In this document: positions 1-17,405 of the stretch, piece by piece
Layout of the letters: each line of letters opens with the position of its first letter
Position numbering within the stretch: position 1 is the first letter of the stretch
DNA from: Bdellovibrionales bacterium
GTDB lineage: Bacteria > Bdellovibrionota > Bdellovibrionia > Bdellovibrionales > UBA1609
Reading direction: 5' to 3'
Length of the DNA stretch: 34,751 bases
Assembly: GCA_020850475.1 (NCBI GenBank)
Contig: JADZEO010000003.1
Span: 1-34,751, forward strand
Made by a program: the position numbers and the translations under genes
Notes under the pieces: generated by a model
What the model saw: only the letters and a program-made list of their open reading frames with translations
Databases searched by the model: none
What the model was told of the DNA's origin: nothing

Positions 1-969
1 ATTGCTGAGGAGTTTCAGACTGAACTTGGCGAAGTCACCCCCCTCATTCGGGCCCGACTGGTTAAGGTGAACACTCAAGACTTTGAAAAGGATATCGGCG
101 GAAAAACCTTTAGCCGAGAAGACGAAAGAGAAGCGAGCTTTCGAAATCGCGGTTTTAATCTCACTTACCGCGAACGCCTCTCGGATTCGGAATCGATCGT
201 CGATGGGCGCGACTTTACCGGGCCCTTTGACGAATCCCAGGGAAAGGTCCCAGAAGTTTCTGTTGAAAAACGCTTTGCGGAACGACTGGGAATTAAACTC
301 GGAGACCTCCTGACGTTTGATATTCAGAGCGTGGCCGTCTCAGGACGAGTGGTAAGTCTCCGGTCAGTCAAATGGACGAGCTTTCAACCAAACTTTTTTG
401 TGCAATTTCAGCCAGGAGTATTGGATTTAGCACCGAAGACCTTTTTGGCGACCCTTCCCCGACTCGATCTCGGCAAACGCGCCCAGCTCCAAAACACCAT
501 TGTATCTAAGCTTCCCAACGTTTCGCTGATCGACATTTCTCGCTTGGTTGCCCAAATTCTGGAGATTACCACCCAGATGAGTTGGGCCTTACAGTTTATG
601 GCACTGCTTTGTTTGGTTTCTGGATTTTTTGTGCTGTTCTCGATTTCAAGTCATCAAGCCCAAAAGAGAAGTTGGGAGATGAACCTACTCAAAGTTCTTG
701 GGGGCGATAGCCGGTTTGTTCGATGGTTCTTTGTTGTGCAATACGCGATGGTTGCTTTGGCGTCGGGCTTGCTTGGCGTTGCGATGAGTCTTGCTGTTAG
801 CCTAGTGCTCTCCCGCGTCCTCTTCGACTCGCTTTGGGTTTGGCAATGGCAAATCCCCACCTTGAGTCTAGCAGGAATGGTTACCATGACTTGCGTCTTA
901 ACTTCACTTGCCGCTCGGCGCGTTTTGCACCAAAAACCTGCGCTCTTATTGCGGAGTGGTGCTGAATAG
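1..969 (+). CDS. FtsX-like ABC transporter permease, YbbP type (5'-truncated)
   Basis: This is the C-terminal part of an inner-membrane permease of the YbbP/FtsX family. These proteins pair with an ATPase (YbbA/LolD type) in ABC systems acting on envelope substrates. The reading frame is open from base 1, so the true start lies outside the window; the GTG at 67 is an internal codon. Visible are a periplasmic MacB-like region with the stretch VSVEKRFAERLGIKLGD, then a region before the membrane containing SFQPNFFVQF, both typical of YbbP proteins. Three hydrophobic segments follow at about codons 198-215, 245-272 and 282-300. The last is followed by a short basic tail, as in FtsX folds. The partner ATPase should lie upstream. 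The substrate cannot be told from this piece. Confidence 0.85.
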   Translation: MAEEFQTELGEVTPLIRARLVKVNTQDFEKDIGGKTFSREDEREASFRNRGFNLTYRERLSDSESIVDGRDFTGPFDESQGKVPEVSVEKRFAERLGIKLGDLLTFDIQSVAVSGRVVSLRSVKWTSFQPNFFVQFQPGVLDLAPKTFLATLPRLDLGKRAQLQNTIVSKLPNVSLIDISRLVAQILEITTQMSWALQFMALLCLVSGFFVLFSISSHQAQKRSWEMNLLKVLGGDSRFVRWFFVVQYAMVALASGLLGVAMSLAVSLVLSRVLFDSLWVWQWQIPTLSLAGMVTMTCVLTSLAARRVLHQKPALLLRSGAE

Positions 970-11788: not shown

Positions 11789-12310
11789 ATGAAGAATGAT
11801 GAATCGATTGATTGTAGTAACGAAGGAACTGTTGCCATGCTCTATCAAAGACTGGGTCGACCGGCATTGAGCAAGACCTTATATCTAGTCGGCCAAGCCA
11901 ATGTCGCTGAAGAAATTGTCCAAGAGAGCTTTGTTCGCCTTTGGCAAAAGAAACCCGTGTTTCCAACACTGAGACAAGCTTACGCCTGGATCTACCGCAG
12001 CTGCACGAACGCTGCGATTGATTACTTGCGAAACAAATCCAACCAGTCAGTCGAGTTTGAAATTGATTCCTTAGCCAGCACGGTAGGTTTGGATCTTGAA
12101 CAGCGAACCGCCTTAAAGCAAACCTGGCAAGCAGTTTTGCGCTCGCTCGACGAGGACGAGGCGGAACTCTTTATCTATCGTGCTGTTGAGGGTCTCAACC
12201 AAGATGAAGTGGCCGAAGTCATGGCCATCTCTCGACGAACGGTCAACCGCATGCAAGACAAGGTTGCCAAAAAGATCGGCAAAATAAAGGAGCGCGGACA
12301 TGGCGGATAA
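11789..12310 (+). CDS. ECF-type RNA polymerase sigma factor
   Basis: A group IV (extracytoplasmic function) sigma factor of 173 residues. Region 2 runs from about residue 18 to 85 and includes AEEIVQESFVRLWQ, the region 2.1-2.2 core-binding helix, then AYAWIYRSCTNAAIDYLR for -10 recognition. Region 4 (about 112-165) has the helix-turn-helix GLNQDEVAEVMAISRRTVNRMQDK. I prefer ATG at 11789, with AGCGGAG upstream at 11771-11777; ATG at 11744 is in frame but has no ribosome site. It is the first gene of a five-gene operon, and its end overlaps the next gene by 11 bases. Such factors often activate their own operon. The regulon is not visible here. Confidence 0.92.
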   Translation: MKNDESIDCSNEGTVAMLYQRLGRPALSKTLYLVGQANVAEEIVQESFVRLWQKKPVFPTLRQAYAWIYRSCTNAAIDYLRNKSNQSVEFEIDSLASTVGLDLEQRTALKQTWQAVLRSLDEDEAELFIYRAVEGLNQDEVAEVMAISRRTVNRMQDKVAKKIGKIKERGHGG

Positions 12311-13025
12311 AGTCGTATCCCGACGCACTTCACTCTATGGCGACCACTTGCGGATTCTAGACTTGGCTGCCAGCGATGCGCCTCTGACCGAAAGTCAAAG
12401 AGCTGAAAGCCAGCGCCTGGACAATTTAGATTTACCCCGCTTGGTATTGCCACCGCGGAAAAAGAATTTACCGCAATGGCTTGATGGCATCATGGCTCCT
12501 CGCGGAATGGTCGCCACCGTCGCCGTTGTATGTTCGTTGTTGATTTTGGTGATTCGCCTGCAAACGCCTCAAGATCAGCTGACTCCCAAAGGGAGCGTGC
12601 GTGTTGCAGTTTTTTGGGATCGCGGTGGGAAGGTCTCTCCGTTTACAGCCGAGAGCCAACTACAGGATGGCGATCGCATCGGCGCCTCAGTGACGGCAGC
12701 CGAGGAGTCGGTCGCGTACTGGGTTGTGTCCGATGCTCAATTTAATATTATTAGCGACCCCAACGACATTCATGCTAGCCGCCTCAATTTGGCTCCCGGA
12801 GTTCCGCAAGAGTTTGCCGCCAGCTTTACTCTGGTAGCACCCAATCAAGGCGAACATCTGATTGTCATTGTCTGTCCAAAGGGAGACAATAAGACATTGG
12901 AATCGGGAGATCGGGTCGGAACCGTCTTTGACCAGTCTTTTGTGTCTAAGTTGATCGCCAAAGGTCAGCTGGAAGCAAGTAACTGTATGTATGCCGGTTA
13001 CAACTTGCGGGGGATGCCAAAATGA
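12300..13025 (+). CDS. Membrane anti-sigma-like protein with DUF4384-like periplasmic domain
   Basis: A single-pass membrane protein of 241 residues. The cytoplasmic part (1-65) is polar and lies next to a sigma gene, so it is the likely sigma-binding region; it lacks the HxxxCxxC zinc motif of ZAS anti-sigma factors. The membrane segment is at about 70-88 (MVATVAVVCSLLILVIRLQ). The periplasmic part (about 98-215) has the look of DUF4384: RVAVFWDRGG, then LQDGDRIGASV and YWVVSDAQFN. DUF4384 domains are often found with caspase-fold proteases in bacteria. AAAGGAG at 12286-12292 sets the ATG at 12300, inside the sigma gene's end. The anti-sigma role is inferred from topology and position. Confidence 0.7.
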   Translation: MADKVVSRRTSLYGDHLRILDLAASDAPLTESQRAESQRLDNLDLPRLVLPPRKKNLPQWLDGIMAPRGMVATVAVVCSLLILVIRLQTPQDQLTPKGSVRVAVFWDRGGKVSPFTAESQLQDGDRIGASVTAAEESVAYWVVSDAQFNIISDPNDIHASRLNLAPGVPQEFAASFTLVAPNQGEHLIVIVCPKGDNKTLESGDRVGTVFDQSFVSKLIAKGQLEASNCMYAGYNLRGMPK

Positions 13026-14557
13026 AATCGCTCAAAAACGTCTTCATGATGGTTGGCCTATTAACACTTGCCGGTCTGCAACCGCTTGCCTCTGGAGCCG
13101 ACGACAAAACATTTACAGCTCTCATCGTCAGTGCTGAAACCTCATACCTTAAGGCCGAAGCGCCCCTCGACTATGCCGATCTCGATGCCGACCGTGTGGC
13201 GCGGGCCATGCGCAAAGCGGGACGCACTCCTCCGGGCGCCATACATCGCCTGAAAAATCCAACCATCGCGGAGCTGACCCAAAACATCAACTCGATGGCC
13301 AAAGACAAGAGCCGAAAATTTTTGTTCTATTTTTCGGGGCACTCCGATGAAAACGGCTTGCATCTTCGAGATGGGCTCATAGATCGATCTCGCTTTCACA
13401 GCCTCATGCAAAAAATTTCGGCCAATGCTAAAGTTGTCATTTTGGACAGTTGCTTTTCGGGATCCCTAAAGACCAAAGGTGTGGCCAAATCACAGCCAAT
13501 CGATGCTGTACAATACAACGTTGATGAACCCACTGGATCGGTCGTGCTGACTTCCAGCTCTGGCAAAGAGTTCTCTTACGAAAGCGAAAATCTCAAGGGC
13601 AGTATCTTTACCTACCACCTTGTCTCTGGGATCTACGGTCAGGCCGATGGCAACAACGATGGCGTCGTGACGATCGACGAACTTTACCAATACGTCTACT
13701 CACAAACTAAGTATCAAAACATGGTTTCGGGGGGACCTGTACAGCACCCCGAGTTCGACTCAAAGCTCACGGGCCAGGGTGCGCTGGTTGTGTCCTTCCC
13801 GGCGAAAATCAACGGACGCCTCCAATTGCCTCAGACCCTTCACGGTGAACTCACTCTTGCCGCCGCGAATGGCGTAACCTTTTTTAAGTTCTTTAAGGCC
13901 AAAGGTGAGGACAGGACCATCAGTCTCCCCTATGGTACCTATGACGTAACCGTGAAACAGCCCGAGCGAGTCGGAGCTGGCCGCATGGAACTTTTGTCCG
14001 ACGAAGAAATACCTCTGCGCGAAGCGGATCTTATTTGGAGTAAACCGACAACCGACCAAGTCAAAGAAAAGGGATTGGTTAGACACGCTGAAAAATTGGA
14101 TGAGTTTTTGTTTGGCTTTGCCATCGGCAGTCACCCTGGATTTGCGAAGGGACTTGAGGACGGAGGTACTGCGGAACTTTCTGTGCTTTCTCCGGCTGCG
14201 TCCTTTTGGGGCGGCGGTTGGCGCGTCGGATTGTTTGGCGGCAGTCAATCGCACAATATAGGAACGACCTCGACTAAAGTCGAATACGCCCGCACTCTGC
14301 TTGGAGTTGAGGCGGAGTATCCCGGAGTGGCCGCCTGGAACAACGACTGGCTCATTGGATTGAGACTCGGAAGTGCAGCGGCCAAAGCCAAAGGCCAAGA
14401 AAATGCCTCACTCGGCCAACTCATGTTAGGAACAAGATTTTATCCAACACGCTTTCCCCTCAAACTGGGAATTCACCTAGGCCTAGAAACAGGGACGTTC
14501 CAAGACAGCAAGAAGTCCGAGGATGTAACAACTCTGGGCTTTTCCCTTTCCTATTAA
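13022..14557 (+). CDS. Exported caspase-like cysteine protease with barrel-like C-terminal domain
   Basis: A peptidase C14 (caspase/metacaspase clan CD) protein of 511 residues. A signal peptide covers about 1-26. The catalytic dyad is present: His107 in FYFSGHSDENG and Cys144 in VVILDSCFSGS, each after a hydrophobic strand. A p10-like region follows (VVLTSSSGKEFSYES). A perfect 12-residue EF-hand loop, DGNNDGVVTIDE, lies at 209-220, so calcium may control it. Residues 265-330 look like a beta-sandwich. From about 370 the sequence alternates Gly and aromatic residues and ends in GFSLSY, as outer-membrane strands do. It overlaps the anti-sigma-like gene by 4 bases. A periplasmic or outer-membrane caspase-type protease is the best reading; the substrate is unknown. 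Confidence 0.85.
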   Translation: MKSLKNVFMMVGLLTLAGLQPLASGADDKTFTALIVSAETSYLKAEAPLDYADLDADRVARAMRKAGRTPPGAIHRLKNPTIAELTQNINSMAKDKSRKFLFYFSGHSDENGLHLRDGLIDRSRFHSLMQKISANAKVVILDSCFSGSLKTKGVAKSQPIDAVQYNVDEPTGSVVLTSSSGKEFSYESENLKGSIFTYHLVSGIYGQADGNNDGVVTIDELYQYVYSQTKYQNMVSGGPVQHPEFDSKLTGQGALVVSFPAKINGRLQLPQTLHGELTLAAANGVTFFKFFKAKGEDRTISLPYGTYDVTVKQPERVGAGRMELLSDEEIPLREADLIWSKPTTDQVKEKGLVRHAEKLDEFLFGFAIGSHPGFAKGLEDGGTAELSVLSPAASFWGGGWRVGLFGGSQSHNIGTTSTKVEYARTLLGVEAEYPGVAAWNNDWLIGLRLGSAAAKAKGQENASLGQLMLGTRFYPTRFPLKLGIHLGLETGTFQDSKKSEDVTTLGFSLSY

Positions 14558-14575
14558 AGTTTTATAACTTTATGA

Positions 14576-15508
14576 ATGATTCAAGCCGGCTCGTACCTTT
14601 GCCTCCTCTTAGGGCTTTTGACATTTACTTTAGGGCTGCAAGCTGACGTCAGCCACAAGAGTGAGGGCCAAGTCGGCTTCACCTCAAACGCGAATTTCGA
14701 AAGTGCCAACGAAGACAGTGATTGGTACCTTGCGGCCACTCAATTTGCTAATTGGTCGGCCGGTTCCGGTCGTGTGAGTCTTAAGGGAAAGTTGTCAAAG
14801 TTTGTCAGCGAGGACCACAATGACTCGTTTCTTTGGCGCACCAATTATTCGGTGCCCGTAAATTCGGCGAGCCACAGCGACCTGTCCCTTTGGGGTAGTG
14901 TCTTTGGCTTGCACTTTCTCAACGGTGCTCCGGCGACTACCGAAGCCAACTTTGATTATCTCGGTGGCGACCTGGGAGCCGAGTTTGTCAAAGACCTCGC
15001 CTCGGCTGAACTTGCCTTCGGGGGTTATTACCAACTGAAGTCCTTTCACAGTTTTGACGGACGACTTGACCATTTGATGGCTGGCTTCGGTGAACTCCTA
15101 TACTCAGTTTCCTCTTGGAAATTAATTCCCTCCACCGAGCTTGGATATGCCAACTCCTCCTTGGGTGACTATTCGCGCTTTTACCTTTCCTTGGGTTTGC
15201 ACGCTGAGTTTTCTCCTCGCGGGCTTTGGAGCTATTCGGGGGACTATCTTTACTTGATGACTCAGTTCACCTCTCGCACAATCACTCAAACGACCGCCAT
15301 CTCTCGTGGTCGCGGACAGACCATCATGGGCTCGGTGCAAACTCACGAGGCACACTCCTTTTCCCAACTCGAGCTTGCTGCAATTCGGAAACTTTCTGAG
15401 ATGTGGAAATTTTCCGGAGGTTTTAAGATCTTAAGCCAGAACTCAAAAAGTGGAATCGAAGATTATTCTGTTTTTGAGATCTTTGCGCTCGTTTCTTCGT
15501 CTTATTGA
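14576..15508 (+). CDS. Putative outer-membrane beta-barrel protein
   Basis: A 310-residue protein with an N-terminal signal peptide (LCLLLGLLTFTLGLQA, cleavage near residue 24). The mature sequence is a run of alternating hydrophobic and polar strands rich in Ser, Gly, Tyr and Phe, such as RVSLKGKLSKFV, AELAFGGYYQLKSF and RFYLSLGLHAEFS. It ends with a strand closing in SSSY. I do not recognise a named family; the nearest look is of porin-like surface barrels. It begins 18 bases after the caspase gene, with an AT-rich inverted repeat (AAAGTT/AACTTT) between them and no strong ribosome site. It may be an exit channel, surface anchor or target for the caspase-like protein, which has a similar C-terminus. 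Confidence 0.7.
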   Translation: MIQAGSYLCLLLGLLTFTLGLQADVSHKSEGQVGFTSNANFESANEDSDWYLAATQFANWSAGSGRVSLKGKLSKFVSEDHNDSFLWRTNYSVPVNSASHSDLSLWGSVFGLHFLNGAPATTEANFDYLGGDLGAEFVKDLASAELAFGGYYQLKSFHSFDGRLDHLMAGFGELLYSVSSWKLIPSTELGYANSSLGDYSRFYLSLGLHAEFSPRGLWSYSGDYLYLMTQFTSRTITQTTAISRGRGQTIMGSVQTHEAHSFSQLELAAIRKLSEMWKFSGGFKILSQNSKSGIEDYSVFEIFALVSSSY

Positions 15509-15529
15509 TAAAACCAAGAGGGGGTCTCT

Positions 15530-16054
15530 ATGTCTTTGTTTTCTCGCCAACAGATAGTGATCGTTTGGGTCGTGGCCTTTGTCTCATTGTCTCTTTTTGG
15601 GTCACTCGCCGCCGGTGATGAGAATGCAGACTTGGATGCCGTTGAAGCTGCCAATGAGGAGCCCGCCAAGGACACCAAGTGGCAATCGGCCGTTACCAGT
15701 AAATTTGAGATGACCGACGAGCAATACAAATCACTTCAAGATCAAGGCCTCAAAGGAAATCAGATCGCAATGGTCGCAGGTCTGGCTAAGGAATCTGGAA
15801 AGACCTTGGATGAAATCGCCAAGATGAGGCTTGAGCAAAACATGGGCTGGGGCAAAATCGCCAAGGAGCTGGGAGTTCATCCTGGTACCATTGGGCAATC
15901 GGTGGCTTCGGTTCGTCATGAAATCAAAGGCGAGCATCACGCGATGAAGCAGGAGCAACGGGCGGAAAGAAAAGAATCTCGAGAGCAACGTCGCCAAGAG
16001 CGGCGCGCGGAACGCGCCGAGCGCAAAGGCAAAGGCAAGGGCGCCAACAAATAG
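15530..16054 (+). CDS. Small exported protein with HTH-like motif and very basic tail
   Basis: A 174-residue protein that closes the operon. AGAGGGGG at 15517-15524 sets the ATG. The N-terminus has a hydrophobic signal-like segment (IVIVWVVAFVSLSLFGSLAAG). The middle (about 60-125) is helical with two helix-turn-helix-like units, including NMGWGKIAKELGVHPGTIG, a pattern found in exported proteins of unknown function in deltaproteobacteria. The last 40 residues are an Arg/Lys/Glu-rich helix ending in a Lys/Gly run. If exported, the tail could bind peptidoglycan, LPS or nucleic acid. If the hydrophobic segment is only an anchor, the middle could bind DNA. I cannot decide between these. It ends next to a convergent gene with no spacer. 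Confidence 0.75.
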   Translation: MSLFSRQQIVIVWVVAFVSLSLFGSLAAGDENADLDAVEAANEEPAKDTKWQSAVTSKFEMTDEQYKSLQDQGLKGNQIAMVAGLAKESGKTLDEIAKMRLEQNMGWGKIAKELGVHPGTIGQSVASVRHEIKGEHHAMKQEQRAERKESREQRRQERRAERAERKGKGKGANK

Positions 16055-16736: not shown

Positions 16737-17405
16737 ATGAGCTTTCCCTTTTCGTCGCGCCACCGCCGCGCTCTTTTTGTCCCCTTGTTTATTATCATCA
16801 ACCTCGTGGTTTACTTCCAATGGCAACGACATCCGGCGGAATCTTTAGATACACCGATGGCGCAAAATTTCCTTGTCAGCTGGGAGGCCTTGCAGCAAGG
16901 GCGCTGGTGGGTGTTGGTGACCTCCGTCTTCTCTCATCTCCACTTTCTCCACCTGTTTGTGAACATGTACGTCCTGCTCGGCTTTGGAGCCTTTCTCGAA
17001 AAGACGATCGGCCGTCGGCGATTTTTGCTCTTTTATTTGCTAGCTGGAATTGGCGGCTCGGTCGCTCACGCTGCAGTTTCGAACTTTTACTTACACGATC
17101 CGTCTTTGCCGGCGCTGGGGGCCAGCGGCGCTCTCGCCGGAGTCATTTTGGTCTTTTCGCTTTTGTTTCCGCGCGAGAAAATTCTCATTATGGGTTTAAT
17201 TCCTGTCCCGGCGCTCTTTGGAGCTATTGCCTTTATCGGACTGGACCTTTGGGGTCTTGTCGTCCAAGGGCAGGGCGGGGGATTGCCTATCGGCCATGGC
17301 GCTCACCTGGGTGGATCACTGACCGGCATTCTTTACTACTTTCTGCGCTTACGTCCTGCCATCCGGCGGGCTCGACGATATCAAATTGACGTCGAGTACC
17401 GCTAG
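16737..17405 (+). CDS. Rhomboid family intramembrane serine protease
   Basis: An inner-membrane protease of 222 residues with about six transmembrane helices, which cuts substrates within the bilayer. The catalytic serine is Ser130 in LGASGALAG and the catalytic histidine is His190 in GHGAHLGG. Asn76 in LHLFVNMYVL belongs to the conserved HxxxN oxyanion motif in helix 2, and Gly-rich GIGGSVAHA follows. Its size is that of the basic six-helix bacterial form with no extra domain. It is the first of three closely spaced genes, followed 18 bases later by a cyclic-nucleotide-binding protein. The native substrate is unknown. Confidence 0.93.
   Translation: MSFPFSSRHRRALFVPLFIIINLVVYFQWQRHPAESLDTPMAQNFLVSWEALQQGRWWVLVTSVFSHLHFLHLFVNMYVLLGFGAFLEKTIGRRRFLLFYLLAGIGGSVAHAAVSNFYLHDPSLPALGASGALAGVILVFSLLFPREKILIMGLIPVPALFGAIAFIGLDLWGLVVQGQGGGLPIGHGAHLGGSLTGILYYFLRLRPAIRRARRYQIDVEYR

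Follow-up and report, generated by a model that had tools for sequence, protein, structure and literature searches.

Several described systems resemble, in part, the locus reported here, a run of five same-strand genes at positions 11789 to 16054 of a Bdellovibrionales contig (JADZEO010000003.1, NCBI GenBank assembly GCA_020850475.1; the window analysed is its positions 1 to 34,751, forward strand, 34,751 nucleotides), the first three of which encode an extracytoplasmic function (ECF) sigma factor, an anti-sigma-like protein with one transmembrane (TM) helix and an exported caspase (hereafter the triad). In the DegS-RseA-RpoE system of E. coli, an ECF sigma factor is likewise held by a one-TM anti-sigma factor and freed by periplasmic site-1 cleavage, as would be expected here, whereas in the triad the operon itself encodes the protease, a C14 caspase bearing its own predicted outer-membrane barrel, and contains no gene for a PDZ trypsin-like protease. 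CalpL-CalpT-CalpS, associated with type III CRISPR (clustered regularly interspaced short palindromic repeats), is similarly composed of a dedicated protease, an anti-sigma factor and an ECF sigma factor, but CalpL is a cytoplasmic SAVED-Lon protease switched by cyclic oligoadenylate rather than an exported caspase. FecA-FecR-FecI also combines an outer-membrane protein with a one-TM anti-sigma factor and an ECF sigma factor; the outer-membrane partner in the triad is instead a protease with a small predicted barrel, and no TonB-dependent receptor or signalling domain was detected in genes 3 and 4 with Pfam or NCBIfam. Among the papers found, the nearest to combine an ECF sigma factor with an inhibitor and a protease of the caspase clan describes Craspase (Csx29-Csx30-CASP-sigma, type III-E CRISPR), in which one locus holds the protease, its cleavable inhibitor and the sigma factor, and cleavage relieves sigma inhibition (PMC10028731). 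Craspase is a cytoplasmic, RNA-triggered system with a TPR-CHAT protease, while the triad pairs an exported protease with a putative membrane inhibitor; there was no cas or CHAT assignment for the five genes (Pfam and NCBIfam) or for the three core genes (PADLOC), the latter giving weak matches and no defence system.

Operons of this general kind have been noticed before from the caspase side. A 2012 survey reported operons with a sigma-70 gene for four of the five metacaspases of Myxococcus xanthus, and the same arrangement in Anaeromyxobacter, Haliangium, Sorangium, Ralstonia and Fibrobacter (PMC3501461), and the Myxococcus, Anaeromyxobacter, Haliangium and Sorangium operons are very probably the same loci as those described below. 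That survey notes the shared sigma factor only, with no anti-sigma factor, mechanism, cut site, barrel, promoter, or spirochaete or Bdellovibrio members. For ECF54, a link to CHAT and other proteases has been described, with no anti-sigma factor (PMC8999054). In the literature searched, with subscription journals mostly outside it, no description was found of the anti-sigma factor, the barrel, the putative cut site, the promoter or the spread over three phyla. The initial annotation of the window, made from the letters alone, knew of no described system of this composition, which stands for the anti-sigma factor and the mechanism but not for the pairing of sigma-70 and metacaspase genes.

Genes 1 to 3 are the conserved unit. 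They occur in the same order and on the same strand in 65/65 loci that hold all three, mostly with overlapping junctions or junctions a few bases apart, and triads were found in at least three phyla (Bdellovibrionota, Spirochaetota and Myxococcota). With the caspase as query, full-length relatives including the C-terminal part were retrieved from three other Bdellovibrionales genomes (48–50% identity); one of these loci (L012) holds the whole triad, while the other two contigs end before the sigma gene or inside gene 2. The same three genes in the same order are present in more distant members of the window's phylum (L101–L104) and in Treponema contigs (L013–L016). Gene 2 alone, used as query within the family, found a single homologue fragment because it evolves fast, making the caspase the better bait, and a PF14326 (DUF4384) search over the window's phylum matched two genomes only, so that DUF4384 is a poor handle there. 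A profile built from gene 2 only (A3) matched 72/284 genomes of the phylum of L018 (a Polyangia contig, Myxococcota) and 49/296 genomes of that of L015 (Treponema, Spirochaetota). The best 30 matches in each of the two phyla have a sigma gene upstream and a caspase gene downstream wherever contig ends permit. Among 20 weaker Myxococcota matches that were checked, 16 are full triads, two (L177 and L191) lie near contig ends and two (L174 and L178) are gene-2-like proteins lacking the sigma gene, the caspase gene and the K-G motif, described below, at its usual place. Pairwise distances of the sigma, anti-sigma and caspase proteins are correlated (r 0.84–0.85, reached in 0/500 permutations), with species relatedness contributing to this value. 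The recurrence of the three genes in order across three phyla is not due to chance, and the neighbourhood, for which the initial annotation had asked whether it extended past one species, is conserved far beyond it.

Gene 1 is an ECF sigma factor of fewer than 200 residues with matches to PF04542 (Sigma70 region 2, 1.5e-9), PF08281 (region 4, 2.5e-8) and TIGR02937 (68 bits against an NCBIfam cut-off of 42.9). Gene 2 has a short N-terminal part, one TM helix (residues 69–87 by hydropathy, 72–86 in the AlphaFold2 (AF2) model) and a beta-rich ectodomain (mean predicted local distance difference test (pLDDT) score 60). This predicted topology, with a sigma gene adjacent in 65/65 loci, is the layout of membrane anti-sigma factors, and the TM helix exceeds the hydropathy threshold in 68/71 homologues. 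The NCBIfam anti-sigma model NF052375 is matched by 21/51 triad homologues (best 8.4e-9), that of L101 aligning over residues 22–124 at 27.8 bits (cut-off 100), and DUF4384 by 15/51. An hhalign comparison of the window-type group with the group from other triads, which includes the PF14326-matching members, gave P 8e-5 and a probability of 61% over the ectodomain, while Foldseek returned weak beta-sandwich matches (best E 3.5e-3). The window protein is thus placed by family membership, without a direct model match; its outer part had been called DUF4384-like at first, a label supported through the family but not by a Pfam match of the protein itself. Taken as a sequence-based unit, the proposed module of ECF sigma factor, anti-sigma-like protein and protease is upheld for genes 1 to 3.

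Gene 3, the protease, matches Peptidase_C14 (PF00656, 1.4e-14), and a fold search with it retrieved, over residues 27–261, caspase-6 (Z 19.7, root-mean-square deviation 2.8 over 197 residues) and Arabidopsis metacaspase 4 (Z 18.8). The His107/Cys144 dyad is invariant (71/71 homologues), as expected if the exported caspase-like protease first proposed is catalytically intact rather than dead. Asp55 and Asp142 are present in 71/71 caspase homologues and Ser105 in 70/71; by motif position, not structure superposition, these residues map to Asp95, Ser156 and Asp211 of TbMCA2 (the mapping rests on motifs because sequence searches of the PDB gave no useful relative). In TbMCA2 these are described as residues of the S1 site, and metacaspases prefer Arg or Lys at P1 (PMC4357240). 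Judged by these motifs, gene 3 keeps the acidic S1 residues of Arg/Lys-specific metacaspases. The early suggestion of calcium gating gains a candidate element in an EF-hand-type loop in which D209 (70/70), D213 (70/70) and E220 (69/69) are invariant wherever homologues align.

Beyond the caspase domain, AF2 places a beta-sandwich and then, at moderate pLDDT, eight strands at residues 363–510. Gene 3 ends in Tyr511, and the last residue is F, W or Y in 15/26 complete homologues (background 7.6%), as in outer-membrane barrels. We therefore predict that the C-terminus is an eight-stranded outer-membrane barrel that would insert in the outer membrane, a part of the protein that the fold search barely probes, the caspase domain filling its match list. 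The link to the outer membrane that had been suspected for this locus would then reside in the caspase itself. In the caspases of the distant triads L101, L103, L114 and L015, LA_2272 surface repeats (GAQ.G..N) lie between the caspase domain and the last strands, and none were found in the window type, which suggests that the repeat region is an exchangeable segment of triad caspases.

A candidate substrate site is found in gene 2. At window positions 97–98, K is present in 70/71 and G in 71/71 homologues, with R two residues before the K in 62/71; when 51 homologues are aligned, most of them near 15% identical to the window protein, just six columns are invariant, and K97 and G98 account for two of these. 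The pair lies between the TM helix (72–86) and the first ectodomain strand (99–108), pLDDT being below 50 over residues 83–95, and R-G replaces K-G in two divergent triads, L187 and L193. The phylum of L061 supplied 30 DUF4384 proteins as a control, of which none lies beside a triad-type sigma gene and ten have a caspase in the locus. R-x-K-G was found in 1/30 of these, K-G or R-G at the matching distance in 1/30, and K-G or R-G anywhere in the 40 residues before the domain in 9/30. The proposition that K-G is absent outside triads was rejected on the latter count and on the E-K-G of caspase-linked proteins; R-x-K-G alone stays rare. Pairs of caspase and DUF4384 genes without a triad-type sigma gene were observed in L055, L056, L059–L061, L068, L238, L239, L245 and L246. 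Because K-G is not strictly specific to triads, its role as the caspase cut site in gene 2 is a reasonable, but not proven, reading of the alignments. The idea in the initial annotation that the caspase may cut the anti-sigma protein thereby gains a specific candidate position.

A shared promoter-like element precedes most of the sigma genes. Counts of spaced word pairs upstream of the sigma gene made TAACA + GTGTT pairs stand out, and a weight matrix seeded with 16 exact sites, whose result was unchanged in leave-one-out analysis, recovered [AG]GT[AG]ACA[C] + GTGT[TC]..A upstream of 53/82 sigma genes, 52 with the same spacer (approximately 2.5 expected from shuffled sequences). Autoregulation by sigma factors of a single ECF specificity would be expected to leave such a pattern. 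Some spirochaete genomes hold further sites ahead of genes for exported proteins, one of them an LPP20-type lipoprotein; these sites are few per genome and are leads rather than a regulon. In one spirochaete, a near-palindromic triad motif (L203/L207, the same site on both strands) lies between the sigma gene and a divergent membrane protein gene, both of which it may drive.

We propose that genes 1 to 3 form a self-contained envelope-signalling module in which the caspase, acting as a dedicated site-1 protease, cuts the anti-sigma factor near K-G and so frees the sigma factor, a proposal to which we give about an even chance of being correct. Gene 2, in the inner membrane, would hold the sigma factor through its cytoplasmic N-terminus, and the exported caspase, with its calcium-type loop and Arg/Lys-type specificity, would be held at the outer membrane through its own barrel. 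When an envelope signal arrives, the protease would cut gene 2 after the basic residue of K-G, just outside the membrane; housekeeping intramembrane and cytoplasmic proteases would then finish gene 2, and the freed sigma factor would transcribe its own operon and envelope genes. What the sequences show is the conserved triad, the intact dyad, the conserved R-x-K-G beside the TM helix, the acidic S1 positions by motif mapping and a conserved promoter in most triads; binding of the sigma factor, insertion in the outer membrane, the cut itself, the signal and all that follows are inferred.

Several observations weigh against this proposal. The AF2 models of genes 2 and 3 rest on 7–8 sequences (mean pLDDT 60–62), and the triads share ancestry, such that the conservation counts are not independent events. 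The window protein has T rather than R at position 95, and it matches no anti-sigma or DUF4384 model directly (Pfam at E<=1, NCBIfam). Searching the window for the shared promoter gave no match, nor do L012 and L104 have one, and the window and L012 sigma factors are the most divergent. Sigma-less caspase-linked DUF4384 proteins (L239, L245, L246, L055, L056, L059 and L061) show E-K-G just before the first strand, where a gapped alignment can place it with the triad K-G. Either this E-K-G is the cut site of their own caspase or K-G is structural, and the conservation of K-G in the triads could likewise be structural. Finally, the weak point of the mechanism is that the site beside the inner membrane may be out of reach for a caspase anchored in the outer membrane. 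One variant would turn this difficulty into the function: the caspase may be the sensor of its own outer-membrane assembly, an inserted barrel parking the protease away from K-G, whereas on failed assembly the protease would stay in the periplasm near the inner membrane, cut the anti-sigma factor and switch on the envelope response. If true, this would explain why a protease acting at the inner membrane carries an outer-membrane anchor, and we regard it as unlikely.

The alternative that survives best against site-1 cleavage by the caspase is that the caspase is the output rather than the trigger, another protease or signal freeing the sigma factor, the gene 2 ectodomain sensing that signal, the freed sigma factor turning on its own operon with the caspase gene in it, and the caspase serving envelope quality control or cell death. 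The caspase gene does lie downstream of an apparently autoregulated promoter, other exported products are encoded within the same transcription unit in the window, and the literature often treats bacterial caspases as proteases of death or stress (PMC3501461). We consider this possible but doubtful, as it leaves unexplained both the near-invariant basic-Gly site beside the membrane helix and why the caspase is never swapped for another output in intact triads. Non-proteolytic coupling, in which the barrel-anchored caspase would touch the gene 2 ectodomain in the manner of FecA and FecR, a change in binding would free the sigma factor and the protease activity would serve another purpose, agrees with the co-varying distances of the triad proteins and with the arrangement of outer-membrane partner, one-TM anti-sigma factor and ECF sigma factor known for cell-surface signalling (PMC9249621); it appears quite improbable, however, given a dyad invariant in 71/71 homologues, which a scaffold alone would not need, and a gene 3 product without features of a TonB-dependent receptor in Pfam. 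That gene 2 is no anti-sigma factor but regulates the caspase or serves as its substrate, in the manner of DUF4384 proteins, the sigma factor only driving transcription, is very unlikely: DUF4384 proteins do adjoin caspases without a sigma gene in other delta-type bacteria, some with K-G before the domain, but 21/51 triad homologues match NCBIfam anti-sigma models (L101 over residues 22–124), and where the sigma-less proteins have a signal peptide, the triad form shows a TM helix with a cytoplasmic part (68/71).

Table 1 Features of the five-gene locus (coordinates in the window).
Feature	Position	Strand	Basis or remark
Gene 1, ECF sigma factor, 173 aa	11789..12310	+	Pfam Sigma70_r2 and r4; start via L012
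Gene 2, one-TM anti-sigma-like protein with DUF4384-type ectodomain, 241 aa	12300..13025	+	Hydropathy, AF2, homologue family models
Gene 2 K97-G98, candidate cleavage site	12588..12593	+	Near-invariant K-G; window reads T-P-K-G, family R-x-K-G
Gene 3, exported caspase-fold protease with beta-sandwich and predicted C-terminal outer-membrane-type barrel, 511 aa	13022..14557	+	Peptidase_C14, fold search, AF2
Gene 3 catalytic His107	13340..13342	+	H in 71/71 homologues
Gene 3 catalytic Cys144	13451..13453	+	C in 71/71 homologues
Gene 3 EF-hand-type calcium loop D209-E220, within caspase domain	13646..13681	+	Conservation; weak Pfam EF-hand matches
Gene 3 predicted 8-stranded outer-membrane beta-barrel, last residue Tyr511	14108..14554	+	AF2 strands, homologue C-termini
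Gene 4, exported barrel-like protein, 310 aa	14576..15508	+	Lineage-specific, outside conserved core
Gene 5, exported basic protein, 174 aa	15530..16054	+	Lineage-specific, outside core; weak HTH_38 resemblance (Pfam)

Calling of open reading frames confirmed the five same-strand genes of the initial annotation (Table 1), with overlaps of 11 bases between genes 1 and 2 (12310/12300) and 4 bases between genes 2 and 3 (13025/13022) and gaps of 18 bases between genes 3 and 4 (14557/14576) and 21 bases between genes 4 and 5 (15508/15530). For the sigma gene, the start at 11789 is favoured over the position chosen by the program (11744, a possible earlier ATG) because 11789 corresponds to the first residue of the L012 homologue. 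Scans of the locus for generic sigma-70 promoters and for terminators gave results at the level of shuffled sequences. The view of all five genes as one system was not borne out: genes 4 and 5 are not present in the other triads examined, genes 3' of the caspase varying by lineage, and neither gene 4 nor gene 5 had a homologue among 46 other genomes of the same family. They are better regarded as extras, and may be local targets of the sigma factor. Although exported, gene 5 carries a stretch resembling HTH_38 (GWGKIAKELGVHPGTIGQ) and a tail that is very basic, which is odd for a secreted protein. A short way downstream of the operon, past one opposite-strand gene, lies a rhomboid intramembrane protease gene (16737-17405, + strand; PF01694, 1e-28), which could be a candidate protease for a later step in this genome; it is outside the operon.

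For most bacterial caspases no function is known, and cell death is the heading under which they are usually placed. The present analysis assigns a large group of them, in three phyla, to a single fixed module that also includes a sigma factor and an anti-sigma-like protein, and names a residue pair as their candidate substrate site. If the proposed mechanism is true, these caspases would have a defined role in signal transduction, and an outer-membrane-tethered protease would be added to the routes by which ECF sigma factors are released.

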